Shown: positions 16,449 to 59,800 of the stretch, one piece after another
Position numbering within the stretch: the first letter of the stretch is position 1
Layout of the letters: each line of letters opens with the position of its first letter
Source of the DNA: Owenia fusiformis
Taxonomy: Eukaryota > Annelida > Polychaeta > Sabellida > Oweniidae
Direction of reading: 5' to 3'
Assembly (NCBI GenBank): GCA_903813345.2
Contig: CAIIXF020000005.1
Span: 1,796,001-1,860,000, forward strand
DNA: 64,000 nt
Made by a program: the position numbers and the translations under genes
Notes under the pieces: model-generated
Database searches by the model: none
Told to the model about the DNA's origin: nothing
The model's input: only the letters and a program-made list of their open reading frames with translations

Positions 16449-18079
16449 AGAAGCTAAATGGTGGCTCCCAGAAGCTGAATGGTGGCCTCCGGTAGCCACA
16501 GAAGCTATACAGGAGCTCCCAGTGGCCCCAAGAAGCTATTAGGTGGCCCCCAGAAGCTATACAGGGACACCTAGTAACCCCCAGAAGCTATATGGTAGCC
16601 CCCAGAAGCTATACAGGGGCTCCAAATGGCCCCTAGAAGCTATATGGTGACCCTCAGAAGATATATAGGGGCCCCCAGAAGCTATATAGGGGCTCCAAAT
16701 GGTCCCTAGAAGCTATATAGTGGCCCCCAGAAGCTATACAGGGGCCCCCAAAAACTATACAGGGCACACAGTGGCCCCTAGAAGCTGTTCGATGGCCCCG
16801 TAAAGCTATATGATGGCCCCCAGAAGCATATACAGGGGCCCCTAGTAGCCCCCAGAAGCTATATGGTGGCCCCCAGTTGCTCCAAATAGCTTTACGGTGG
16901 CCCCAAAAGCTATACAGGGGCTCCTAGTGGCCCCAAGAAGCTATATGGTAGGTCCAAGAAGCTATATGATGGCACCCAGAAGCTATACGGTGGCCCCCAG
17001 AAGCTATAGGATGGCATCCAGTGTCCCCCAGAAGCTATATGGTGGCCCCCAGTGGCTCCAAGAAGCTTCACAGTGGCCCCCAAAAGCTATACAGGGGCTC
17101 ATAGTGGCCCCAAGAAGCTATATGGTAGGCCCCAGAAGCTATATGATGGCACCCAAAAGCTATACGGTGGCATCCAGTGTCCCCCAGAAGCTATATGGTG
17201 GCCCCCAGTGGCTCGAAGAAGCTTCACAGTAGCCCCAAAAGGCTATCTGGTTGGCCCAAGAAGTGAGATGATGGCACCCAGAAGCTATACGGTGGCCCCC
17301 AATAGCCGCCAGAAGCTATAGGATGGCATCCAGTGGCCCCCAGAGGCTATATTGTAGCCTCCAGAAGCTGTATGGTGGCCCCGATGGCCCAAAGAAACTA
17401 TACAGGGGCCCCCAGAAGCTATACGGTGACCCCCAGAAGCTATATGTTGGCCCCCACAATAACTATATGGTGGCCCCCCAGTGTCCCAAAGAAGCTATAC
17501 AGGAGCCACTAAAAGCTATACAGGGGCCTCTAGTGGCCCCAAGAAGCTAAATGGTAGGCCCCAGAAGCTATATGATGGCACCCAGAAGCTATATGATGGC
17601 CTCCAGTAGCCGCCAGAAACTATAGGATGGCATCCAGTGGCCCCCAGAAGCTATATGGTAGCCCCCAGAAGCTGCACGGTGGCCCCCAGAAGCTATACGG
17701 TGGCTCCAAAAAGCTATATGGTAGGCCCCAGAAGCTATATGATGGCACCCAGAAGCTATATGATGGCCTCCAGTAGCCGCCAGAAGCTATAGGATGGCAT
17801 CCAGTGGCCCCCAGGCCAGAAGCTATATGGTAGCCTCCAGAAGCTGCACGGTGGCCCCCAGAAGCTATACGGTGGCTCCCATGCGCTATATATTGCCCCC
17901 TAAAAGCTATATGTTGGCCCCAAAAACTATATGGTGGCCCCCCAGTGTCCCAAAGAAGCTATACATTATCCCAAGAGGCCAAAAAAGCTATATGGTGGCC
18001 TCAGAAGCTATACAGGTGCCCCCAGTTGCCCCCAGAAACCATACGAGGCGAGGACCCCCAGTGGCCCCCCAGAAGTAAG
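16449..18079. repeat. 1.6-kb minisatellite of about 21-bp units
   Basis: Dozens of degenerate units of the form AGAAGCTATAYGGTGGCCCC plus C run almost without interruption. Because 21 bp is seven codons, several frames stay open and translate as degenerate heptapeptides such as KLYGGPQ, but nothing (start context, splice sites, homology) supports a protein. The array is strikingly GC-richer than its surroundings. A detached remnant lies at 18209-18258. Confidence 0.9.
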
Positions 18080-42000: not shown

Positions 42001-44874
42001 AGGGGTATCAGTTCAAAAAAAATACTAGATGACCTAACATATTTAACCATGAACTGCGCCTATTCATTTGGCAATTCAGTTGTAAATTTTCTCTTGAAAA
42101 AATAAATCTTCCAAATTTGTTGAGTTTTCTTGCAGAAATCGCCTAATCCCCCCCTCCATCATTTTTGTACGATCACCGGGAGTGATTTAAGCCTGTCTTG
42201 CTCAAAGCCTCTGAATATCCCAAGCACCCTTTTGGTTTTCAGACTATCCAGTGACTATCCAGAGAGTCTTCATCATGGAGCCACTATATATGACTGTGAT
42301 TGAGCCTACCTTTCATTGTTCTGGCATGTGGAAGCATACTCCAGCAGTACTATTTTTGCAGGGTAGTGACTACACAGCTCCCCATTGATATTGTCAATGA
42401 CCTAAAACATGCAACATATTTTTTCAGAACATACAGGATCACTAAATATTCTGCTGATGATCACTGTATATGAATTAATTTTCTGAGTGTCTCCTGGTTT
42501 TGATTTCTGGTAGGCTTAGTGATATATAAAATCTGGTTTATTTTATACAAATTGATCTTTGAAACAGGCAACCCGATTTATGACTGTTAAAATTGAAGAA
42601 AGAAACACTAATTTCAAAATATAGACCAGATCCAAATCATTCTTTGGATATACCAGCAGGAGATGGACAAATTATTTGTATCATTAATACCCTCCATGAA
42701 TCTACATTGTATACAGAGTGAGTCATTAGATCATGCCACAATGGAAAATGTATTTTCTCAGTGGTTGATGGTTGATGTTACATGTGAAAGTTTGCAACAT
42801 TAAACACTTTACCAACATAAAGAATCACGAAAATCCCATTACAACTGATATAGTTGTTCCAGAAATGGAGCGTTGCATATTTTTGGTCAACCTGGACAGT
42901 AGACATGTACATTCTTCATTTAGAAAGGTATGTCATTAATTCAATTAATAATATCTAAAACTCATATAAATTGGTTTTCTCAACCTGCAGCTATACAAGT
43001 TCAGTAGAGTGAAACAGATGGCACATTTCTGATTAGATGATATGTCCAAATACATTGATTGATTATTTAATTCAATTGATTCTTTTATAAGGTGTAAATG
43101 ACTATTTTACATGACCTTATAATAAATTACACAAACTTACCGAGTATTTGTAGTCCTTCCCAAAGAGTTTGAGGCAGTTATCTATGAAGACGTCTGACTG
43201 AAATGACAAAAGAAAGAGATTATTCAGTTTCTTTGTATATACTAGAGGTGTCATGGTTTAACGATATTGGACCTTACACGTACTTTGGTCAAGACATTTC
43301 AGTTTGGGACATGGGACAGAAAGGTTTAATATGGCGACGGTATCAAGACATTAATTTCTCAACTAAAAATGCATAAAAACATGTATGGCGAGAAACATCT
43401 CTGGATTTGTTCTGAAAAAATCAAAGTATTTTAGTTGACTTCGTACCTTGATTACACTTCTTAGCAATGCAGTTATCAATGCTGAATACATGTAGCTTTT
43501 TTAGCACATCCTTCAACTTTCACTCAAAATTTTGTACAGAATTTCTAAAAGGCTCCAGAGCTACAGTTCATAGATGAAACTGGTACACTTTACGAGATAA
43601 AAATTAATCTTCTGCATGATGGACTTTGTTTGGACTTTGGTCAGGACTATTTTTCTTATAAGTGCCTTTGACTCACCGGATGTGAAACTAATCAACCATC
43701 TGGAGGAATCACTTAGAGAAAAAAGCACTTAAACTCACTAACTGCTCTCCAACGGAGAAATGGACAGCTGAATAATAGTGGCCTTTGAAACACGAGTTTG
43801 TCCGGGGCTTACTTTTGTTCTCTAACTATGACATACATCATTATCATCCTGAGCGCTGAAGTACTTCTTTTTCGATCAAGACTTGTAATTGTTAGTCGAT
43901 TGAATGTTTTTTTCTACCAAATTCCAATATGGCGTTTTCTGCTCGGACATTTTCGTAAATCTCCGGAGGTTGTCCAAACCTGACTCATTCTCAAAAACTC
44001 ATTTCGTTCGTTGCGTATCTCGCTCCTAGCAAACCGCCATATTGGAAATGGGTTGAAAAAACATTCACTCGATGAACAATTTACAAGTCTTGATCGAAAA
44101 AGAAGTATTTCAGCGCTCCAATACTTGCACGGATTGATGATACTGATGTAAGACACAGTTAGTGACCTAAAGTAAGACGCCGATCTCATTATTCGTGTTT
44201 CAAAAGTCACTATTATTCTGCTGTCCAAGTGCGCTGTGGGAAAGCTATTATATCAAAATCCACATAGCTTTCCCAGGAAGTAAACTGAAACAAGATATAA
44301 ATCAATTCAAGAATGGAATTGATAAGCACCTGATGAGACAGAAATTTCTTCACCACAACTAACCCATGTCCAGTGAGCAAATAAACAACGCCCCCCTTTA
44401 CATGATATGAAAATAATACATAATAAAAAGATCTGGATTATACAGGACTATCCTTCTTCCAGAATTATAGATATACATGTAGATATAGAAGTTCTACAGT
44501 TCGGGACATAAATAAATGACAGGTGGATTTGCTGAAGTGAGAATTTCCCATGTTAAAAATAAGAGAATTTTCAAGAGGCCATACATCAGTGGATGAGATT
44601 ATACAAAATGTGAAATATACAAATTTTAAGGGATATGTGTCTTGACAATATTGGAAATTATGGGCTTTCAGACGACCATAATTAGGAAATGGTGATCGAA
44701 AATCGACCTGTCATTTATTTTTGTCCCCAACTGTATGTTTGGAGTTTTTTCATTTGTGGATCTTACCTTTTTATCATCTTTGGCTTTGTAAGATTGCTTT
44801 GAGAAACTGTCCAGCAGAAAGTGGATGTCTTCAATCTTTATATCCCCATCACCATTTATTTGTGACTTAGCCAT
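36021..44874 (-). CDS. MTMR14: myotubularin-related protein 14 (phosphoinositide 3-phosphatase), complete 14-exon gene
   Basis: Exons, 5' to 3': 44767-44874, 43141-43197, 42310-42401, 41759-41867, 41293-41414, 40966-41088, 40632-40705, 40193-40341, 40023-40086, 39390-39552, 38897-38933, 38426-38549, 38110-38254, 36021-36630. All junctions are GT-AG with consistent phases, giving 658 residues against about 650 in vertebrate MTMR14. Exon 10 encodes the phosphatase CX5R loop HCISGWDRTP, with catalytic Cys about residue 308 and Arg 314, followed by SLWADGLIHASL and AYDWYLFGH. Earlier family blocks include HICRSATLSG, KVDKEQRYADF and WDQNFVDS. The Ser-rich tail ends in the family's FGSWQIISGAGS and a helical C-terminus. 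MTMR14 (Jumpy) removes the 3-phosphate from PI3P and PI(3,5)P2 and dampens autophagy. Intron 13 holds a mariner remnant; intron 1 holds a long palindrome. Confidence 0.96.
36959..38082. mobile_element. 1124-bp mariner-like element with long TIRs, in MTMR14 intron 13
   Basis: Both ends read CAGGGTGGGCCAAAAAAAAC inward and are flanked by TA (36957-36958 and 38083-38084). The inverted similarity continues for about 340 bp on each side (to about 37300 and from about 37735), far longer than usual mariner termini. The centre holds a decayed transposase fragment. It lies entirely within one intron and does not disturb the MTMR14 splice sites. Confidence 0.88.
37331..37699 (+). pseudogene. degenerate mariner/IS630-type transposase C-terminal fragment
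   Basis: The plus strand translates as a Tc1/mariner catalytic C-terminus: FLQDIASYHRS (equivalent of the family's QQDNAPxH block), WPPNSPD, then HTWSHLEEMV, a stop, and in a shifted frame FDELKQNPKVLK and AIDRLRYHL. At least one frameshift and internal stops disable it, and the N-terminal DNA-binding half is absent. Confidence 0.85.
43761..44227. repeat. 467-bp palindrome (foldback element) in MTMR14 intron 1
   Basis: The left arm starts TGGACAGCTGAATAATAGTG and the right arm is its imperfect inverse, ending CACTATTATTCTGCTGTCCA. Pairing continues through CGATCAAGACTTGTAA to CAATATGGCG / CGCCATATTG, leaving a loop of about 100 bp. The right arm has about a dozen extra bases. No target-site duplication was evident. 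Antisense and sense open frames across the arms mirror each other and are not genes. Confidence 0.85.
44248..44276. repeat. short hairpin
   Basis: GGGAAAGCTAT and ATAGCTTTCCC form an inverted pair just outside the 467-bp palindrome. Confidence 0.5.
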
Positions 44875-45115
44875 TGAATACTAACGGTAAGTCAGAGATT
44901 TTGTAGCAAAATCTGGGATAAATTCACGAAAATTATTACATCCTTATTTAGAGGGCTTGCCGAGCTATAATGTCACAACATATCTGATTGGTCAAGAATG
45001 CAGAATGTTGTGATGATTAACCAATCAAATACTTTGTTACAAAAGATATTTCAGAGACCGTAGTTCTCAGGAATCCCCTGTAGGTGGCAGCACTTAATTT
45101 AGGGGAAACACCAAC
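44875..45115. promoter_or_regulatory. bidirectional promoter between MTMR14 and ATP23
   Basis: Only 241 bases separate the two divergent start codons. The segment carries two CCAAT boxes in opposite orientation, ATTGG at 44987-44991 and CCAAT at 45021-45025, about 30 bp apart, the arrangement often bound by NF-Y in divergent housekeeping promoters. There is no obvious TATA box. Shared regulation is inferred from spacing and motifs. Confidence 0.7.
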
Positions 45116-48100
45116 ATGGCGGACGGAGTTGAAAAATCTTCAAATCAAAATTCTGAAACAAAATCGTCTGAATCTGCGCCACCAAGGGAAAAAACCCTTT
45201 ATGAAGAGACAGACAAGGAAGACTATGGCTATTACTTCTACCCCGACCGAAAAGGAGGTCAGGAAACATCTACGTGGAGACAAATTTTAGAAGGACGAGG
45301 AGCTGCAAGAAAACTGAAATGTGAACGAAATGTCATGTGGTGCATGGATAAACGTATGTCACTTTTCTTTTCGTCCTTTGGTGTTTTAAAGTATGACTGT
45401 TGCTAAAATATGTAGGCAAACGATAACGATTTGAAACCACATCCAACTTTCAGATGTAAATCAACAATGAGGACAATTGTTGCATCAGCTCTCTGCACCC
45501 CCATAAATCATTTTTCAAATCACCCCCACTACTACCGGTGTATTGAAAACTTGGGGTTGAAAAACTGTGTCAGTAGTAGACACAAAGCTGAATTTTATCT
45601 TATTAACCACTAATCCAGCTTATTTCAACAAATATATCAATACAGAAGCAGTTACGGGGGTGATTTGAAAAATCAACCCCACATTTACAGGGATAGCTCC
45701 CTAGGTCTATAATCTGCTAAAGGTGTTTCTATTATTGTCAATTATCTGCCACATTATCAAGGAAAATTGGTTTCAATTGATCAAGAATTTACCTTGGTTT
45801 ATGAATACATAGCATAGAAGTTAAACCTACATGTACATGTAGTCCTGGCCCAAGAAATTTCAGATTGATAAATTAATCCAATTGGGCTCAACTTGTTCAT
45901 GTATGGATAAGTTCGGGAAAGTTTTCAGATCTATTTTGGAAAATCCTCAGGGAATTTGTAATTTACAATTATTTGACTTTTGTAAGTATTCCTATTTGGA
46001 TGTCAGTGCTATACCAAGACCCAAGACTTACGGTAAGTAGAACACATGAATCTGAAATGCTTATTTCCAGATCTCAATGATAAAAGTTGAGCTCAGTCCT
46101 GACTCACCAAATTAAATAGCCGCCAATATTTGAAATTGAGCAAATCCACCAAATTAAGTAGCGTCAAATTTAGTGCATCTACAGTAAACTAAGCTACATG
46201 TATTTCTGATCAATTGTTCTTGCAATTTTCAGATCCTATGGTTCGTCTTATGGCAGGAGCCTTAAAAGCACATGGATGGTAAGTATTGTGCCATAATGCA
46301 ACAGACTGAATTTGTATAGAATAATTGCATGGTGTTTGGATCTACATAATCATCATTTGATACCAATTATGTTATTTATGATAAAATGAAGTTATTTGAA
46401 AAATACATGTATTACCATGTAGCTTATTATAAATGTGAAAATTTACATCACCATACAGTAAAATTATCAAATGGTTTTCATGAATCTAACATGTCTGAAT
46501 GTAATCTGATATTATATTTTTTCAGTCCAGTGAATTTGAAGAGGCATGTATCATGTGAAAAGTGCAAGTCAAAAGTAAATGGAGGTTTTGACCCCAAAAA
46601 TAATCAGGTAGGGAGATATAATTATGCTTATAATCTTAGATTAAAAAATGTTTTTAAAAAAGTGTCACTAGATGGATAAAGTTTTGTTGTTCAGCAAAAT
46701 AAATGTTTGATACTTGTCAGTTCATTTTCAAATCTAAAATCCAAAGATATGTTAGGCAAGGATTTGAAACTAAACACATATTGGTTTTCCAATGACTCAT
46801 TCAACCATCTCAATACAGTTCATATCTTAAGTCACATTCATGCAATATTTTTGTATGTAATATTCTAGGTTGTAGTATGCCACAATAACTCCACAGCTCT
46901 TGGTGTTTGCTGCAGTGTACTTGCCCATGAACTGACTCATGCGTTTGACCAGTGTAGAGCCAAGGCAAACTTTGAGGATGTGAGACATTTAGCATGTACT
47001 GAGGTATGTTGACTGGTAAATTACAGTGTACTTGCCCATGAACTGACTTATGCATTTGACCAGTGCAGAGCCAAGGTAAACTTTGAGGATGTGAGACATT
47101 TAGCATGTACTGAGGTATGTTGACTGGTAAATTACTGTGTACTTGCCCATGAACTGACTCATGCATTTGACCAGTTCAGAGCCAAGGCAAACTTTGAGGA
47201 TGTGAGACATTTAGCATGTACTGAGGTATGTTGACTGGTAAATTACAGTGTACTTGCCCATGAACTGACTTATGCATTTGATCAGTGTAGAGCCAAGGCT
47301 AACTTTGAGGATGTAAGACATTTAGCACGTACTGAGGTATGTTGACTGGTTAATTACAGTGTACTTGCCCATGAACTGACTTATGCATTTGATCAGTGTA
47401 GAGCCAAGGCAAACTTTGAGGATGTAAGACATTTAGCATGTACTGAGGTATGTTGACTGGTAAATTACAGTGTACTTGCCCATGAACTGACTTATGCATT
47501 TGATCAGTGTAGAGCCAAGGCAAACTTTGAGGATGTAAGACATTTAGCATGTACTGAGGTATGTTGACTGGTAAATTACAGTGTACTTGCCCATGAACTG
47601 ACTCATGCATTTGATCAGTGTAGAGCCAAGGCTAACTTTGAGGATGTAAGACATTTAGCATGTACTGAGGTATGTTGACTGGTTTATTGCCACTTTTTTA
47701 GTCTTCATCAATATTATATTTTCTAAATGCTGGAACTCCTTGCTAAAGCTTCTTCAAAATTATTGCAGAATGAAACTTACTTCAATCATGGCTTACAATG
47801 TTTTGGTGGACTCCAATGTGACATATAAATTAGCAAAAGTTTTTAATAAAATAGTTAAAAATTAAACTATCAAAAAGAAAGAGTTTATTTTAGTTTTGAT
47901 GATTTTCTATAGTTTAGATAGATATTTCTTACGTCAATCCATATTTCTCAGACTACAATGTTCTTTACTTTCAGATTCGAGCTGCCAACTTCAACCACTG
48001 TTCATTTAGTGCTGCGTGGGCAGAGGGGGATGCTGCAATGTTTGGGGAGAGATTGAAAGCAGCACATCAGGTAAACCTAGATGGACTGAAGATATATCCA

Positions 48101-49565
48101 AGGATAATGACATAAACATTACATAATATACTAAAATATTTTTTTATGTACATGTACAAAATATCGTTTAAAAATATCTGTACATCTGCCTGGTGGGTAT
48201 GTTTCTCATGAAATTACAGCATATTCCAGTAACTAGCAACAGTAATATCTACCGTTTAATAACATGGTGCATTTGTGTCTTATACATTCTTTTTTTACTG
48301 AAGTTATATAACAATATATAGGGTGTCTCAAAAAATGTACAAAAAAGTATATCAACGCCATAGACAAACCAATCAATATTTTCAGACATTTTTGGCATTG
48401 TCTTGTAGATAAAAGATGAAAGTTTTTTCTCCTATAATTTTAATTCAGCTTTGCCTTTTGATGCTTTAACCTGTTACCTTTTACGCCACATATTCAATGT
48501 TACCTAATATTTCGATGACAGTCTGCATCCTTACTACTACATTGTTCATCACATTTGATATATCTGGTGGAATGTTTTGATTTCTGTTCGGATGCTGGTC
48601 TTAAGTTGTTCTAGGTCTCTTAGCTTGGGTTTAGCATAAAAATGGTCCTTCAAATAGCCTCAGAGAAAAAAGTATGGGCCGTCAAATATGGTGAATAGGA
48701 AGGCCCTCACAATGTCTTATAGCCCCCTTATACAGAGAGGTCAGAGGTTCAAGAAACTGCATTGCTTGGGATTCTAGTGTAGCTTTTGTTTGTGTATCAA
48801 TTTGAGACCACTGTGTTTTCATTTGGATATGATTTGGTCTCCATGCTAGCCTGCCTAACTCTGGAAGGTAACTCCTGAATCATTTGCCAAGAATTGACCT
48901 GATTATCTGTGTTTTTTCTGCCATCGTCATCCTCAAACATCTTTCTCTGTGGCTATTTGAAGGAGTGTTTTAATGCTCATTCCAAGCAAAAAGACCTAGA
49001 ACAACTTAAGGGCAACGTCCAAAGAGAAATCCAAAACATTCCGCCGGAATTATTATCAAATGTGATGAACAATGTAGCAGTAATGATACAGGCTGTCATC
49101 GAAATATGAGGTTACATTGATTATGTGGTGTATAAGATAAAGGGTTAAAGCATCAAAAAGACAAGACTGAAATAAAAATGGTGTATTGGGGAGAAAACTT
49201 TCATGTTTTGGCAACATGACCATGCAAAAAATATTGATTGGTTTATCTGTGCTCTTGATATACTTTTGGGTACATTTTTTTGAGACACCCTGTATAACTT
49301 CATTAAAAAAGTTATTATATTACTACTACTACTGCTCTTCAGTCTATATTTCTTGATTTACTTTCAGACATGTGTCAAGAGGAAGGCTCTATCATCTGTA
49401 GTGCTAGTCAGAAATATCCCCGTAGAAGAAGCCTCAAAAATAGTGGACAGTGTATTTGATAAATGCTATAATGACTTAGAACCTGTTGGCAGAATACCCA
49501 GGAAGGGCTCCAAGGACCCTGTTAGAGCTTTAAATGAAGGATATATGTATGGATACAGAAGTTGA
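45116..49565 (+). CDS. ATP23: ATP23 mitochondrial inner-membrane metalloprotease, complete six-exon gene
   Basis: Exons: 45116-45353, 46233-46278, 46526-46607, 46869-47003, 47975-48070, 49368-49565. All introns are GT-AG and phases agree, giving 264 residues (vertebrate ATP23 about 246). The zinc-protease motif HELTH (residues about 142-146, preceded by VLA and followed by AFDQCRA) is in exon 4; conserved flanking blocks are HVSCEKCKSKVNGGFDP, VVCHNN, VRHLACTEIRAAN, and FDKCYNDLEPVGRIP near the C-terminus. ATP23 is an M76 metalloprotease of the intermembrane space that in yeast processes Atp6 and helps assemble the ATP synthase Fo sector; the vertebrate protein is also called XRCC6BP1. A polyadenylation signal lies at 49737-49742. 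Exon 4's 3' half and donor are copied six more times in tandem downstream. Intron 5 holds a mariner-derived foldback. Confidence 0.96.
46916..47683 (+). repeat. 7 x 111-bp tandem array of the ATP23 exon 4 3' end plus splice donor
   Basis: Units start at 46916, 47027, 47138, 47249, 47360, 47471 and 47582, exactly 111 bp apart. Each has 88 bp of exon sequence (from TGTACTTGCCC to ACTGAG), a GTATGT donor, then 17 more intron bases ending ATTACAG (ATTACTG before the third unit). The first unit is the functional exon end. Units 1, 3 and 7 keep the HELTH codons; in units 2, 4, 5 and 6 the second histidine codon is changed to tyrosine. Reading through any donor meets TGA in GTATGTTGA, and splicing copies together shifts frame, so extra copies look non-productive. 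Confidence 0.95.
48319..49292. mobile_element. 974-bp foldback of a mariner-type transposon, in ATP23 intron 5
   Basis: The right end reads inward CAGGGTGTCTCAAAAAAATG and the left end matches it with its first base changed; TA flanks both (48317-48318 and 49293-49294). Inverted arms of about 350 bp each contain the same transposase 3'-end sequence in opposite directions, so the element is two copies of one transposon end joined tail to tail around a central spacer. Confidence 0.85.
48909..49109 (+). pseudogene. mariner-type transposase C-terminal remnant
   Basis: The frame encodes LCGYLKECFNA, then LEQLKGNVQREIQNIPPEL and VMNNVAVMIQAVIE, the pattern of the C-terminus of mariner/Tc1-like transposases (LWGYLK...EIxxIPPE). 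The catalytic domain is absent. A mirror copy, more decayed, lies on the minus strand at about 48490-48670. Confidence 0.8.
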
Positions 49566-49736
49566 TGAAGGCTGGATTTAGCTGAATTAATTAGTCATTT
49601 TGAATTAGATTGGTATTGGAATAGTTCCCCTGACACCAAACATACAAATTACACAGATTAACAGATGTTATGAATCATAGATTTTGATTGGATGGGATGC
49701 TGCTTTAGAGTCAAGTTCTGAACTCGAACTGTATCA

Positions 49737-49742
49737 AATAAA
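49737..49742 (+). terminator. ATP23 polyadenylation signal AATAAA
   Basis: AATAAA, 172 bases after the stop codon, is the first such signal on this strand downstream of ATP23. Confidence 0.6.
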
Positions 49743-50757
49743 GCCAGATGTCATTTCTGGGTCCAAAATCTTGTCCAAACATTAGAAATTAGAATTTCAG
49801 ACAAGCAAACAAAACAAGTTCAAATCATTTGGTGATTTGGTACAACACAGATGGCTGTTTGATGGAACAGAGGAAATACATTGTAGATCAAACAATTATA
49901 CCAGTTTGAAATTATGTTAATAGTACATGTTATCTTTTTTAGGATTCTGTTTATACTGCAAGTTTACTTCTCCCATGACATGTATCCCTTAGCCAGTAAT
50001 CAATATGGGGGTCAGTGAAAAATCAACATAAAAAGTCTTACAAAAACAAAATTGTAAATTGTAAAGTAAACAAATAAAGTACACAAATTCAAATTAAGAT
50101 ATACACAATAGTTTTTCATTTATTTTCTTAAAAGCATATGAAGTAGGCTATATTCTTTGTTAAAATATACAGCTGCATTATCTAGTTACTACAAAATATC
50201 CTGATATAATTCAATCAGAACAGCTGAATTTGCAAAAAACAAACTTCAGGATCCAATAACTTATGTTTACATTCCCCAAAATCTGGAGACCAATTAATTG
50301 TTGAGATCATAAATAAAGTGCACCCAAAGTTTTACTAATACTTTCAGACTGATTCTGAAGTTGACATGATGATACAAAATGCAAACATAAAGCTTTCAGG
50401 CTTTAAGCATGAAATAATCTGGATTTCATATAATTTCCATTCCAAACAAATGTATAAATGGACCAAGACTCGTATTCTCCACCATCATTTCATGCACTTT
50501 CTTGGTATGATATAACTACACACACGAACATGAGTGTCTTTGTATAATCTTATAATGTGAAATGGGCAAAGTCTGCCAAAAGTGCCAAGTTTTACTTTAG
50601 TATGATATGGCATGCATTACATGATGGAGATCAAATAAATATTTTTTATGTGACAGTAGAATGACTTATCATTGTCCTTACAGGGAATCAAAACTGTTGC
50701 CTTGTCACCTAGTATATCAATACAAGGCATCAAAACTGTTGCAAAATGTTTTGTAGA
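49743..50757. other. intergenic DNA between convergent 3' ends
   Basis: About 1 kb between the polyadenylation signals of ATP23 and the helicase gene. I see nothing coding in it. Confidence 0.5.
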
Positions 50758-50763
50758 TTTATT
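50758..50763 (-). terminator. helicase gene polyadenylation signal AATAAA
   Basis: The complement reads AATAAA, about 53 bases downstream of the TAA stop at 50816. Confidence 0.6.
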
Positions 50764-50815
50764 CAAACATGAATTTAATGAAATTAGGTACATTTTGGTG
50801 CATGAAGTTGGATAA

Positions 50816-53800
50816 TTAATTTCCATATGCATCATCTTCATTAGAGGGGGCTGTGTTGGGATGACCAATCAGCTGACGTAAGCTTGGGTATTCTTCACTG
50901 ATGCATTGTGGACTTATTGGACCTCCACTCATTTCAACATCATTCATCTGGAAAGGACATAACAAAGTGTGATTATGAGTGTCAAAACAAAAATGGAAGG
51001 ATGGCAGGTCTGGATTATGGTTCACAAAGCCAATTGCTTGCAGTGTCAGTCCAATCTTGTTTACAAAAGTGTGTGTGTGCGTGCATGTGTATGTGGGTGC
51101 CAGGGGGAGGGAGTTATCAAGATAATGTAGATGACTCGCTTAAACATGAATTTCACATTTTTGTAGGATATAAGGATTTTTAAAACTCTCATACACTGAA
51201 TACAAAATGATCAACAGCATAAACATGAAACTAATTTTTCTAATTGGTCTTTCAAAATCATTTTAAAAGAATCAAGACATTTACCAATTTAACAGATTTC
51301 CTGACCAGAACCAGTGCTTGTGGCTCGAAGTCTGTCCCTGTGACAAAACAGTTCAATACATTTCCAGGGGGTTTCTTCATCTCCTTGTATGCTTCGGTAC
51401 ACATAGGATATTGGAAGTTTTCCTATAAAAAATGAACAAGCCTGTCATATCAGTATACACAATTACTGCATACAATTTGAGTAGTTTACAGTTTCGTGAA
51501 ATATACTTTTAATTTCATTTGACAAATGCATCATCTTTACAAGGCATGTAACAACAAATTGTCACCATCTAGCTGCAATTGACTAGATGCGAGTAGAAAA
51601 AATCTTGATTTACGCCATTAAATATTCAAAATCCAGTCAAATGGTCAAAGCGATGTTATATTTGAAATCTACATGTAAAATTACGTCTAGAAATATGGTT
51701 TCGAAAATTGTTTATCAAGTTTGAAAATTTAATTATTTTTGAAAGTGTGACTTCTAGTTCGGGTTGATTCTCCATAGAGCCCATGTTACAAAATCACAAA
51801 AAGTAAAATATCTTTTCTTGTATTGGTCAGATAACATTTTCATTTACTGGACATATTTTGATTTGCATAACTGTTAGATACATAAGGGTTATATGAAAAT
51901 TGAACCACTAAAACAGATGTAATTTAAGTTAAAGGGAACTTTCTACTATACCCGCCATGCTATCTGACCCGAGCGAGCCACCTGGTGGTGAAACTGGTTA
52001 CTACCTACTCGCATCTGCGTTATTGCAGGTGTATTACTACAGACGCCAAATACCAACATATACATGAAAACTTACCTTGAAGATTGTAATAATTAAAGAT
52101 ATTGTGGCCAACTTACAAATATTTAAGCCAGTGTGAAATGATAGGTATTTTAAGACATCTCATGATGTACCAAAATTGGAAATTGATGCATCAGAAATTT
52201 TCACTAAACGTTAATGTACATCATGAAAATAATATGAATATAATTAGTAAAACAAATAAGATTATAATATTGCAATAACATAACACCTAATTCAAGCATA
52301 AATAAAACATCCAGAACACCAAGATGTCCTGACAACATTTCTGGTGACCCTGTACCTACCCCAGAACGCTTCAAGACAAGATGCAATGACTGGCCACCCT
52401 GTACCTACCCCAGAATGCTTCAGGACCAGAAGCAATGACTGGGCAAACTGTACTTACCCCAGAACGCTTCAGGACCAGATGCAATGACTGGCCACCCTGT
52501 ACCTACCCCAGAACGCTTCAGGACCAGATGCAATGACTGGCCACCCTGTACCTACCCCAGAACGCTTCAGGACCAGATGCAATGACTGGTCACCCTGTAC
52601 CTACCCCAGAACACTTCAGGACCAGATGCAATGACTGGCCACCCTGTACCTACCCCAGAACGCTTCAGGACCAGATGCAATGACTGGTCACCCTGTACCT
52701 ACCCCAGAACGCTTCAGGACCATATGCAATGACTGGCCACCCTGTACCTACCCCAGCACGCTTCAGGACCAGATGCAATGACTGGCCACCCTGTACCTAC
52801 CCCAGAACGCTTCAGGACCAGATGCAATGACTGGCCACCCTGTACCTACCCCAGAACGCTTCAAGACCAGATGCAATGACCTGTTCATCTGTAAACATTT
52901 CTTTGCTCTTGTGGCTGCCACATAGAGAAGATTATTCTCATCCTGTTCACCAAGTCCATGAGGAACAATGCTGAAGTCATCTGTCAGTCTCACAGTGTTG
53001 AACTCCAACCCCTTTGACTTATGAGCTGTTGTTAATACATAGTCTAAAATATAAATATAAGTTGAACTGAATGATAGGAAAATCAAAATTTGAATGTAGG
53101 CTTACAATAAAAAAAAATCTAAAACATCTCAGATATAATGCAGCTATTTGTTAACATGCAAAATTGTCAACACCAGTATTTTGTTACAGATGCTAAACCC
53201 CCGAACAGTCGAACACATTTGTTATAGATGCTAACCACTGAATGCATTTGTAACAGACACCAAACACCATCAACAAAAAGAAAGTTGAAGGATATAACAA
53301 TACATGTATCTATGATACATGTCACCAAGGAGTGACATAAAAAGTCATTATCACACATATTTTAAACTAACCTGCCACTTCGATAATTGATGTAGCCTTC
53401 TTACGTATTTTACTAATGTGCATCGGTAGACTATGACGATACACCTTCACAATCTGAATCTTTCCTTTAAGTTCATGGTCCGTAACTTTTGTTGCATATT
53501 TTTCCAATGCATCTAATGACTGGAATCCACCTATAAACTTACTGTGTATTTTCTTATTTTCTGAAAGGCAAGCAGAGACATATTTATTCATGAGTGGCCT
53601 CTGATAAACAGAACAATAATATTATGTTTACTTTTCAAATCATTGGGCACAACTTAACTAAAATGTCACAAATATAGTATGCATTTAAGTTTCCAGATCA
53701 AAGTGATCTCATAAAAAATGTACAAATAATTCAGGTAAGTTATTATAAGGTCACTCATAATTAGAATGTAATCATTTCATACCTTTTATCCTCTCTTCGG

Positions 53801-56800
53801 GTGATAAGGTGAGGGTGTATATGTCATCTATTATGTCAAATCCAAATCCCTCTAGACCCTGAAGAAATATAATATATTTATTCTCAAATTAACAATGGTA
53901 TTATTGTTTATTCATTGAAGTTAAATGCCCCATTTATTGTTGTTAACTTTACAATGAAAGAGGAACAGGACCCAAGTTATTTATTTCATTTTTCCTTTTA
54001 CTTTTGAAAATGCAGTGTGATGAAAATTAGGTTGAGCATAATATGCTACAAGTAGGATGTGCATAGGTACCCCAACAAATGCAATCCTGATGTGCATACG
54101 TACCCCAACAAATGCAATCCTGATGTGCATACGTACCCCAACAAATGCAATCCTGATGTGCATACGTACCCCAACAAATGCAATCCTGATGTTCTCTGTG
54201 TAGCTACATAATCCAACGGCCTCCTGGAACAGTTGGAAGTTGGTACGCGTGACTATAGCTATCTGGCCATTTGACTCTCCCAGTACACTCCCTTAAAAAC
54301 AAAATAATATGTACATGTATGAGGGTTGACCCAAAAGTATAACACACATGCCAGAGTTATAAACAGAGAAAGGTTAAAGATTCACTTTCTTTAAATTGAT
54401 TTACTTCAAATGGAGAAGTTGCAAGGTTGAACGACATAGCAATAACAAGTTTACCTAGAATGTCCTAATAGTCAATCTATGTATGTACCAGAATATATAA
54501 TATTACGTACAAGACACATATTCAGTAATGCTTTTAAATTCTTACGCACATTCATACCTTACATTCATTTACATAAACTCCAACATGACCTGAAGTTTAG
54601 CGTACCTGGTATTCCATTTCCAACTAGCGTCTTTGTCTTCTCTCCTTTCAGGTGTTCCAAGATACAAGAGGCTGCAAATGCTACTTCAGGTCCAAATCTA
54701 AATGACTGGAACAAATGTATATTTATTAGAGATAAAGCCCTTTATTGAGAAAATAATGAAAAACTAAGGAGATGTTTTATAAGTAACATGTGTCCCCTTG
54801 ATTTCTTTTGGAAAAAGAAGTTCAAATCCTATTTGATTTATCTAAATAATGTGGAAGAGGTCTGGATGTGTTGCTTTAGGATGACCCTTCTGTGTAAAAA
54901 GCTAAAGGCAGATCAGGCTGGTGATACACTAGATTTACTTGTATAAGAAAGACTAGTGTATAATTGGGGTACCTGTGTCAGATAGAATATATGACTGGCT
55001 TGTACTCTCTCCATGGCATTCACTGCTCCCCTGAAGGAGTAAATTTGTTGATGTGGGTCTCCAACTAGGATCTTAGCCTGGGACTGGCGCAACATGATGT
55101 CAGTTATAGCTGAAACAAGATGTCACATAGCTGTGCATTAAAGCTGCAATATAAACTTGAAACTACATGCATGGGACATTGATCTGCAGTATCTTTTATT
55201 AGAGAGATTTCGCACATAAGTGAAAGTACAACTTATACGTATACATATAGTTTAAAGGGTCATGTCGAACTATTATATTTACTAAAATCAATTTTAAATT
55301 GTACTTAATGGAACATAACGATTCCCGTTATAGAAAAGCTCCATCAACTATGATGCATTGAGACTATGAATGCATTGTCATCTGCACGTGTAGATTATGC
55401 ACATTATATTTAAATGCTTGCTTCCGTGTCCTTGTAGTTGTAGTGTATTAAAAACATGATCCTTTAAAGGGAGTCATGATTCTTTAAAGTGAGTCATTAC
55501 ATAAACAAGTTGATTCTTTCAATGTTTTCATGATCAGTATAAGTTCAATGAACTTAAAAAACGGTATATTTACGTAGATGATAACGTATACAGTTGGATC
55601 TCCGTATAAAGATTTGCCTACATGTGTGTGGAACAATTGACCGCAAGCATTTTTAAAAATTAATTGGCTGAGTGGGAACAGTATCCAATCAAATACTTTA
55701 ACCATCAATTTGAAACACCAATCAAACCAGTAGGTTCTAGCAATTCCTGGAAACAATCCATTCAGTAGCTCATCATACGACATACAGGGTGTTTCATAAC
55801 GAGCATCTCCAAAAAGTCAATTTGAGAAGAGATGGGTCTATAACATATGTACTATATATGAGCCTATTTTATTCTAGACAAACACATTTGGATCAACTAA
55901 ACATCCTACAATTCAAGAAAGTACAAATGGCATCCCTTTGACCTGTATTTATTACAGTCTGAGAAGATCTTTCCTGACGAAAAGCTCACATTATGAAACA
56001 CCTTGTACTTTTACCTATAAGTATAAGTATACGTTATAAGTTGTACTTTCACTAGGTGCGAAATCTCTCTATTATCTGTTTTATTCCATCATATCATAAT
56101 TTAACACAATCATAGAAAATGAGAGGAACAAATCACTTATCTTACCATCAATGTTCATTTTGGAGTAAAGTAACATAGAATGTATGTGCAAAGTATGTAT
56201 GGGTGATTGAGACATATGATTTGTAGCATATATATATTACCATCTTGCGAAAATATGAGCGATTTATAAGGACTGACATTGAGAGGTGTAGTGAATGGAG
56301 AGGGCATATATCAAAGGATACTAGCTGTGGTTGAATCAAACCATGGATTTCAAGAGAAAGTTGATGTTGGCCTTAAAAATAAAATTTGGATAAATGGATT
56401 TGGTCCAGTGCCGTTTCAATACAATGTTGTTTCTTGTATTTAGCTTTGTAGCTTATAGACAATATGGTGCACTTATGGAGAAGGAATACATGTACCTGTA
56501 TATGATACATAGATAGTGTTAATGGTCACTACATACAGGAAAACTCTGTTTCTTTACCTGGTGTTAAATCCTGTGCCTCATCAATGAGTATGCAATCACA
56601 GTCCCAAATCCTTGGCTTACTCAACTGGTAAAGCTTTAGGAAACCATCAAAAGGGATGCAGATGCCCTTGTCTTTCTTATCTTTGATTCTCTCCCAGATG
56701 TATTCAGCATCTTCAGAATACCTCTGCAAAAACATACATTAAAGTTAGTAATACTAATGGTTTTATGGGTATAAACTATTAAGTTTAAGGCTCTGTAGTT

Positions 56801-59800
56801 CTTCCATATTGTTGACATTTCCATAAAGCATGTCTATTAACTTTTTCATCTTTGAAACCATGAGAATATTTACATTGGTTGTAACTGAACTTTCTATAGG
56901 TAGTAAACCAGAACAACGGCAACGCCAAAGCGTAGCGAATCCCATCGAACAGAAATGGCTGGCATTTTTACAAACGAATAGCAATAAAACAACACACCAG
57001 AAAGGCCACCATTTTCAAAATGGTTGCTCACTAGCCAAGTTGTTATTAGGAGAGATAATATGCTTTTAAGTAGCTACCTCTAAAATTTTTGAAAAATCGC
57101 ACACGTACTTGTAAAATAACACACATAAAAATGGTGGCTATTTTTCAAAATGGCCGACTACTCCCCAAAGTTTTGTTAGACAATGTGCCATGCTTAAAGT
57201 ATTCACATATCAAATATGAACAAAATCGCTCCACTACTTTTTGAGTTATAGTAAAATACGTTAAAATGGCGGCCATTTTTCAAAATGGCCACCTTCTACC
57301 AAAAGTGTCATTAGAAGTGGACAGTGTGCCATATATGCTTATAGTATTCACATACCAAATATGAACAAAATCACTCCACTACTTTTCGAGTTATAGTAAA
57401 ATATGTTAAAATGGCGGCCATTTTTCAAAGTTTTTTCAAAATGGCCGCCTTCTACCAAAAGTGGCATAGGACAGTATGCCGTGCTTATAGTATTCACATA
57501 CCAAATATGAACAAAATCGCTCCACTACTTTTCGAGTTATAGTAAAATACGTTAAAATGGGGGCCATTTTTCAAATTTTTTTTCAAAATGGCCGCCTTCT
57601 ACAAAAAATGTCATAGGACAGTGTGTCATGCTTATAGTATTCACATACCAAATATGAACAAAATCGCTCCACTACTTTTCGAGTTATAGTAAAATACGTT
57701 AGAATTTAACTTGCAAATCCAAAAGTGGCATAGGACAGTATGCCGTGCTTATAGTATTCACATACCAAATATGAACAAAATCGCTCCACTACTTTTCGAG
57801 TTATAGTAAAATACGTTAAAATGGGGGCCATTTTTCAAATTTTTTTTCAAAATGGCCGCCTTCTACCAAAAGTGTCTTTAGACAGTGTGCAATGCTTATA
57901 GTATTCACATACCAAATATGAACAAAATCGCTCCACTATTTTTTGAGTTACAGCAAAAATCGTAAAATGACGAGTAAAGGCGGCCATTTTTCAAGATGGC
58001 TGCCATGTGCTTCTTTAATATCTACATTTGTAGCATTATTAATGTCCCTTATAATTTTTTTACATTTAAAACATATTGCTATTACAGTTTTACATATTGC
58101 ACCTAAATTACTGTAAAATCGGCACTAAAATGGCCGCCATTTTGAAATGAGCGGCCATTTTGAAAATCGGCTTTCGAGCAGAACTTCTACTCCCATAGGG
58201 TATATGTGTACAAAATATGAACAAAATCGGGCCAACGGTATTTGAGTTATTGCCCGGACGGACGGACGGACGGACGGACGTACGTACGGACGTACGTACG
58301 TACGGACGGACGTACGTACGGACGGACGTACGTACGTACGGACGTACGTACGTACGGACGTACGTACGGACGGACGGACGGACGGAGGCGTTCCCTATAT
58401 CCCTCTGAACTTCGTTCGATGGGATAAAAAGTAATCAGCAAATCAAGCCTCCACTCACAAAAGAGTAATGACGTACAGTTCTACCATCATATGCTCATGT
58501 TTGCATGAGTATACACCATTTATGTATTTTAAGGTTATGGCTTACCATTCTAGCATCTTGTGGAATGGCCTTCCTCTCATTTTTATCAGTGACTTCATAC
58601 TCTGGTACATGTTGTGTTGTGATGAAGTCATCAGCAGATGCCATGAATGTCTCAAGGGTGTCCTTCACAAACTTTGCACGGGAGTAGAGATTGTCTCCCT
58701 TTCTTTGGGGCAAAATTTGTGTAATGGGATAGACCTTCAGATTGCCTATGAATTTCCCAGCTGCTCTATACCTACAGAGAGAAACCACATGTAGAACCTT
58801 AGAAATTGTGAAGGATTACAAAATTCAAAAGATGGTAAACTGAAATGAATGTGAAAAAATAGATACCAGTCATACCAAAATACCTCTTTTAGTGCTATGA
58901 AGATGTCAATATCTTCACAAGATTCATGTTTTTTTGCATCATAATAAGAATTCTTTAGATACCCATAAACAAAGCACATTTAATTTAGTTAAAAACAAAA
59001 ATAGGTGAATCACATGCGATTTACATATGTGATGCAGATATATCAGTACTTACTTGTATCCTACATATTTGTAAGCTAAAGCATGTCCAGTCATACAGTT
59101 GACATTACTGGGGAACCTACTCTTAGCATGCTCTCTCACTGACCTGAAGTGATATTACATTTCAACACATTAGGCACTTACTGGAGATACAAACTATTTT
59201 ATTATGACAAGTTGTCTTGTATTTGTGTTTTTGAAAAAAAAACATGTTCAAAAGAATCAAGATCACATGATACACTTATTATATATTATTATATTTTCCT
59301 ATTTCTATCATTTTGCTATTGTATACATGTTGTAACTTTTAAAATCTAAAATAATTTATGTACTCATCCCAAAGGTGGAAATAAAGAAACATAAACTTAT
59401 GTACATTTCACATAGTTTTGAATGTAAGATGTTGATCATGAGCCCTTAGAAGAAAAATGTTGGTCCTTCATTAGAATCCAATTACATACAGGACTATGCT
59501 TCAAGTACTTTTGTATCCTGAAATTCAATTGTATGGATGGTTAGACTTTTAAAGGGATAAGGAGTTTAATCAATCAGTGGTCCAGAAAAAAATAATCTGA
59601 TTATTATTATAGCGGGATAAATAGTGTAAAGTAATCGCCGTTTGCGGAACAAATCGTGAAACTTTCCTCAAATGATCACTGATTGCTACTCTTCAAATAA
59701 AGCAACTGTGCCAAAAAATCGCTCCATAGGAACTACCCTAATTTTACAATTCTTACCCCCCCCATGGTCACGGAGGGGGGGGGGGCTAAAAAAAATTTGA

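Follow-up and report, generated by a model that had tools for sequence, protein, structure and literature searches.

Seven tandem copies of a 111-bp segment (777 bp in total; positions 46914-47690, forward strand) were found at the boundary between exon 4 and intron 4 of an ATP23-like gene in the window, the 64,000-nt stretch of the Owenia fusiformis genome analysed here (C5:1796001-1860000), and they most likely represent a harmless extra piece of intron rather than a control device. The array is probably a near-neutral passenger minisatellite, which arose from a duplication across the end of exon 4 and is spliced out through the first of its donors; the use of this donor in the animal and the near-neutrality of the copies are both points that we infer.

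The ATP23-like gene (peptidase M76; 45116-49565, forward strand) was modelled with six coding exons, whose borders come from the modelled joins (45116-45353, 46233-46278, 46526-46607, 46869-47003, 47975-48070 and 49368-49565). The joined product of 264 aa gave an uninterrupted match to Pfam PF09768 (E = 4.3e-48), with residues 68-239 aligned to positions 2-169 of the 170 in the profile, and it carries the HEXXH zinc site that marks the M76 domain as HELTH, encoded in exon 4 (46869-47003; 135 nt, phase 0-0, VVVCHNNSTALGVCCSVLAHELTHAFDQCRAKANFEDVRHLACTE), the exon that ends at donor 1 (47004). A PF09768 search of the 498-Mb assembly (525 contigs; the 12 queried contigs measure 32-62 Mb) located M76 genes at this locus alone, its seven matches being exon 4, five array copies and the stretch 49362-49487 of the window, and the full 135 bp of exon 4 was matched at one place in a DNA search of the whole assembly. 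A paralogue that would have freed the array-bearing copy to decay was ruled out by this single locus. A search of the assembly for COX1 gave no hit. Apart from the array, the gene is intact. Intron 5 holds a fold-back element (48315-49296) with nested inverted repeats and outer arms TATATAGGGTGTCTCAAAAAA and TTTTTTGAGACACCCTGTATA, which we take to resemble a degenerate mariner-type element.

Each unit of the array combines the 3'-terminal 90 nt of exon 4 with the first 21 nt of intron 4. TRF delimited the repeat at 46913-47683, with a period of 111, 6.9 copies, 96% matches and no indels, which is far beyond chance, although tandem arrays as such (period >= 25, >= 2.5 copies) are frequent in this genome, with 15 of them, counted irrespective of exon overlap, in 160 kb sampled at 20 places. 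TRF and the alignment of the units bore out the first-pass annotation, which had described seven copies at a 111-bp period carrying the HEXXH end and a donor. The span that it had given, 46916-47683, needs one correction, as the duplicated segment begins at 46914 in the exon and ends at 47690 in the intron; each of the two outer breakpoints (46911-46913 and 47688-47690) shows TGC. The donor GTs recur at 47004 + 111k (k = 0-6) in seven identical contexts (GAG/GTATGTTG, that is GAG/GTATGT, the slash marking the splice point), and the copy junctions end at 47026 + 111k (k = 0-5) with AG in five of six; the remaining one, at the junction preceding unit 3, has changed from AG to TG (47136-47137, forward strand), in agreement with the GTATGT donors and ATTACAG-like ends, one of them mutated, that had been annotated. 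The annotated 23-nt gaps, the 134-nt intron obtained by joining donor n to acceptor n+2, the in-frame TGA met on read-through and the frame shift caused by 88-nt exons were likewise all correct, as was the loss of the second histidine codon of HEXXH in four of the seven copies (CAT to TAT in units 2, 4, 5 and 6). When donor 1 is used, intron 4 (47004-47974, forward strand) is 971 bp long; without the six extra copies it would measure 305 bp.

A tandem duplication starting within exon 4 and ending 21 nt into intron 4 would have seeded the minisatellite. Because the right end of this duplication lies beyond the donor, the native exon and donor would have stayed in place, retained in copy 1, and exon sequence could have been duplicated without harm. 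With donor 1 in use, all later copies would leave with the intron and the mature mRNA would be unchanged, so that the spliced-out copies would be free to grow, exchange and decay. The passenger reading is favoured by donor-1 joins that are also continuous in the neighbouring FBH1-like gene and in THOC1, both of which have such repeats; against it stand the silent-only differences between the first and last units, the location of three of three local minisatellites on donors and an excess of donor-motif pairs in the genome (2014 vs 1200), each of which is considered below.

Units 2 to 7 differ from unit 1 at 4, 4, 7, 4, 4 and 7 positions, with units 5 and 6 identical; 13 of the 111 positions vary, and any two units differ on average by 3.9% (over 104 nt). 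Coding changes found in just one of units 2-7 (positions 41, 53 and 82) are all non-synonymous, as expected of neutral copies, and unit 1 has a single coding change of its own (position 30), which is silent; among the shared coding changes those at positions 36, 42, 54 and 69 are silent and that at 25 is not. Coding differences are thus synonymous in five of nine cases (binomial P between 0.02 and 0.08, according to the transition bias assumed). Units 2-6 each carry at least one amino-acid change, and the exon parts of units 1 and 7 (46914-47003 and 47580-47669) differ at positions 30, 36, 54 and 69, all synonymous, a pattern with P = 0.002-0.0065 if both units were free and P = 0.022 in a simulation with one copy constrained and one neutral.

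The last unit may formerly have been coding, and the simplest account of the silent-only differences, if not a full explanation, is an exchange between two working alleles, which is permitted by the four-gamete conflicts at position 25, themselves a sign of either exchange between units or repeated mutation. The specific version of this account, in which two working alleles that had long been separate underwent unequal exchange, one contributing units 1-3 and the other units 4-7, would leave the first and last copies differing at silent sites alone, and the synonymous positions 36 and 69 do separate units 1-3 from units 4-7. As the sites are few and come from a single haplotype, we hold it to be a real possibility, although the less probable course of events; it modifies the passenger explanation and does not replace it.

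The first-pass annotation had left the choice open between a splicing decoy and neutral expansion, and while its anatomy and frame logic stand, neutral expansion fits better. A decoy would act through extra donors that divert U1 from the first one, or through inclusion of 88-nt copies by way of donor n to acceptor n+2 joins with 134-nt introns, both routes ending in stop-containing mRNA, so that copy number would set the output of the gene. In agreement with this, misuse would yield no product in 63 of the 64 splice chains modelled (any of the seven exon-4 donors followed by any later array exons, with introns of at least 60 nt and the TG junction treated as usable): the full protein was obtained from the chain joining donor 1 to exon 5 and from none of the 63 in which one of the additional donors or an acceptor of the array takes part, and exon 4 ended at any of donors 2-7 ran into a stop after 169 residues. 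The site scores, calculated with donor and acceptor matrices built on 17 introns of this genome (five of ATP23 itself and 12 of the three EF1A copies), are divided. All seven donors, native and extra alike, scored 11.0, above each of the 210 other GTs in the ATP23 introns (99th percentile 9.2), and one junction AG, at 5.5, exceeded the two weakest of the 17 real acceptors (4.6 and 5.2; range 4.6-16.4). The other four intact junction AGs scored 3.6, lower than all of the real acceptors and a value reached or exceeded by 15 of 140 intronic AGs outside the array, and the TG junction, at -0.2, is lost. By these matrices the copies would be strong donors with poor acceptors, for which reason any leak would be expected as use of a late donor and not as inclusion of an 88-nt exon. 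In humans the choice between close donors is regulated, with SRSF1 and hnRNP A1 among the factors that govern it, and can favour the intron-proximal donor (part of PMC5585400), a choice that, if applied to ATP23, would add a stop.

Conservation of the donors and folding of the RNA gave the decoy no further support. The unchanged donor 9-mer is not conserved beyond chance (P = 0.33, with 13 of 111 sites variable), and no special fold was detected for the array RNA (z = +2.24, with 20 of 20 shuffles folding at least as well), for a single unit (z = +1.13) or for the donor region (z = +0.43), nor was any known RNA family found at gathering score in 44000-52000. Neutral expansion is favoured over a decoy, which we consider unlikely, because the junction acceptors are weak and one is mutated, the second histidine is lost in four of seven copies, the RNA folding is unremarkable, and arrays of this kind are also seen in genes unrelated to ATP23. 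An in-frame cryptic acceptor, GA[TC]CAG/TGT, that would add 17 aa per copy was discarded on its scores (-1.4 to -3.6), and a coding role of the array was rejected on the TGA present in each unit on the gene strand; within 46700-47900 no open frame is longer than an antisense one of 121 codons, which is interrupted in unit 3. With respect to the EF1A genes, two adjoining EF1A-like copies were located at C11:1900060-1926897, besides the copy on C1, and one of the C11 copies is diverged (55-73% identity per exon to the human EF1A probe).

Two further donor arrays were found in the FBH1-like gene, which lies convergent with ATP23. The first of them (54056-54192, reverse strand) consists of 4.2 copies of a 33-bp unit, made up of 18 nt of exon end and 15 nt of intron with the donor GTTGGG/GTACGT, and its donors 2-4 are in frame; the donor-1 join matched F-box DNA helicase 1 with 63 residues on either side (E = 1.9e-8). 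The other (52347-52880, reverse strand) has a 49-bp unit and 11 donors, TCTGGG/GTAGGT, with GTAAGT in one of the 11; its exon matched UvrD_C and F-box DNA helicase 1 (E = 2.5e-10), and a search for the exon that follows this array gave no confident candidate. A third set of repeats beyond them (57276-57958), complex, with periods of 117, 147 and 264 bp and rich in AAAATGGCCGCC, lies upstream, on the reverse strand, of the observed FBH1 exons, and elsewhere in the window a long irregular repeat nest was seen at 16461-17942, with reported periods of 20 to 177 bp and units such as CCAGAAGCTATATGGTGGCCC.

Pairs of donor motifs (AGGTAWGT N22-52 AGGTAWGT) were counted genome-wide, together with pairs of the reversed motif (TGWATGGA) as control. 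All 23 donor clusters hand-counted among the matches listed, which cover C1 up to 50.77 Mb, were inspected by following reading frames into the first donor, with a homology threshold of E <= 0.001. Duplicated exon ends with homology were present in five of the 23, hence in at least five places on C1 up to 50.77 Mb: BLOC1S5/Muted (E = 5.9e-15), TIMELESS (E = 1.9e-9, in a unit with only about 7 nt of exon), THOC1 (E = 2.1e-9), an NIF phosphatase (E = 4.9e-6) and liprin-alpha (E = 4.1e-4). For THOC1, the donor-1 join gave a gapless alignment over 47 residues and the second donor, read from the sequence, would lead to an in-frame TAA. A tetraspanin-like cluster was weak (Pfam E = 0.058, PDB E = 4.7); two others (L045 and L053) had an open exon that found no match in homologue searches; that of protein kinase C iota has a true exon end (E = 3e-20), with no clear duplicate at its second donor; and reading frames gave no coding evidence in the remaining 14, of which the three run against Pfam (L057, L062 and L066) had no match. 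L062 and L067 (C1:33846423 and 50261730) are near-identical copies of a dispersed repeat with two donor-like motifs.

The unit lengths that could be read were 111, 33, 49, 54, 52, 52, 25 and 33, of which four of eight are divisible by three; as the 111-bp unit moreover contains a stop, frame does not impose a strong rule, although a mild frame preference may exist. Exon-end donor arrays look like a recurrent and tolerated class; scaled up by length to the whole genome, the five verified cases correspond, as an extrapolation, to about 50 arrays with this motif and gap alone, and a total in the hundreds would be a further extrapolation. As a control for the donor arrays, pairs of acceptor motifs were counted as well: TTTYCAGG gave 4004 pairs vs 197 for its control and was swamped by a dispersed repeat, and TTTGCAGW gave 810 vs 214. 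No convincing exon start was seen in the 27 TTTGCAGW clusters inspected, out of 32 counted by eye among the matches listed for C1 up to 50.77 Mb, the five omitted looking like one dispersed element; two clusters (L081 and L083) had a short open stretch up to a donor-like site and one (L073) a long open frame within a repeat that has no stop in any of its three frames. These motifs are probably mostly not real acceptors. The dispersed repeat behind the 4004 genome-wide TTTYCAGG pairs carries TTTTCAGGTGAACCGTTTGGTAGATCAATTTCAAATTTTCAGG; it is first listed at C1 23381 and often spaced at about 162 bp.

Studies of the choice between close donors usually rely on engineered duplicates or on donors unequal in strength, whereas in several genes here the same or nearly the same donor is repeated, together with part of its exon, from 2 to more than 20 times, and because these donors are near-identical, position is the main difference between them, which makes them a natural competing-donor series. 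If the first donor always wins, this would explain how exon-end duplications survive and how introns grow harmlessly; if it does not, array length would be a heritable dial on gene output. That the class as a whole works as graded splicing rheostats, with donor number setting the productive mRNA fraction and array length varying between individuals, we regard as improbable.

A process directed at donors, for instance transcription- or splicing-linked breaks that make exon-end duplications, is suggested by the three arrays of two adjacent genes all lying on donors and by the 2014 donor-motif pairs vs 1200 control pairs, a count in which long arrays enter many times. Between 45.1 and 56.8 kb, all three minisatellites (period >= 25, >= 2.5 copies) were on donors; when a fourth array (57276), just outside this interval, is taken in, the post hoc probability of finding one of the 12 counted donors in three or more of the four is 0.0026. 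However, neither clusters (23 vs 27 for the control among the matches listed for the same C1 interval, four of the 27 being one dispersed element) nor clusters with two or more pairs (7 vs 9, hand counts among the matches listed) were enriched; the 160-kb random sample held 21 occurrences of the donor 8-mer and 17 of the control. Given 23 clusters vs 27, donors do not look like preferred targets of arrays. The 5-bp microhomology ACATC at both breakpoints of the 33-bp FBH1 array is also what ordinary slippage or end joining gives, a process with which the TGC at the ATP23 breakpoints would fit as well, and a donor-directed process is accordingly very doubtful. An assembly artefact is extremely improbable, as the copies carry distinct substitutions, the array is just 777 bp long, both DNA searches placed it at one locus on a 42-Mb contig, and similar arrays occur elsewhere.

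The array was compared with known systems. Poison exons are a form of NMD-linked control, and the ATP23 array would share with them the premature stop, since none of the modelled inclusions gave the full protein; the 88-nt copies would shift the frame if included, but most of the array acceptors score low. A literature search over titles and abstract openings found no report of the ATP23 array and no description of a genome with donors repeated many times at several conserved genes, and the multi-gene occurrence of repeated donors is the part worth following. With units that join 90 nt from exon 4 to 21 nt from intron 4, the array would belong, by its sequence, with the internal tandem repeats at exon-intron boundaries described for human segmental duplications, where 27 intron modifications are listed and copies can be retained in or spliced from the transcript (part of PMC2812944). 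Both are minisatellites at an exon-intron border; in the human case recently duplicated primate genes carry, with transcript support, units of 30 bp x 4 on average, whereas the ATP23 array has 111-bp units, lies in a single-copy conserved gene and is known from genome sequence alone. Tandem duplication is also an accepted route of intron gain (parts of the review PMC3443670, of PMC4974935 on potato and of PMC2891723 on Drosophila), and two fission-yeast genes have an intron that extends over copies of a 24-bp AGGT repeat, four in one case and two in the other (PMC4974935). Splice signals are copied in tandem in both situations, but in intron gain an exonic AGGT segment becomes a new intron, while in ATP23 an existing donor is copied and an existing intron lengthened; in our splice models the coding sequence would not be preserved upon splicing of a new intron, which sets the array apart from intron gain. 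A further likeness is with competing 5' splice sites such as those of DOK7 intron 4 (part of PMC5585400), where several donors likewise face one acceptor, the difference being that the seven donors of ATP23 are identical, in a near-identical local exon context, and differ in position.
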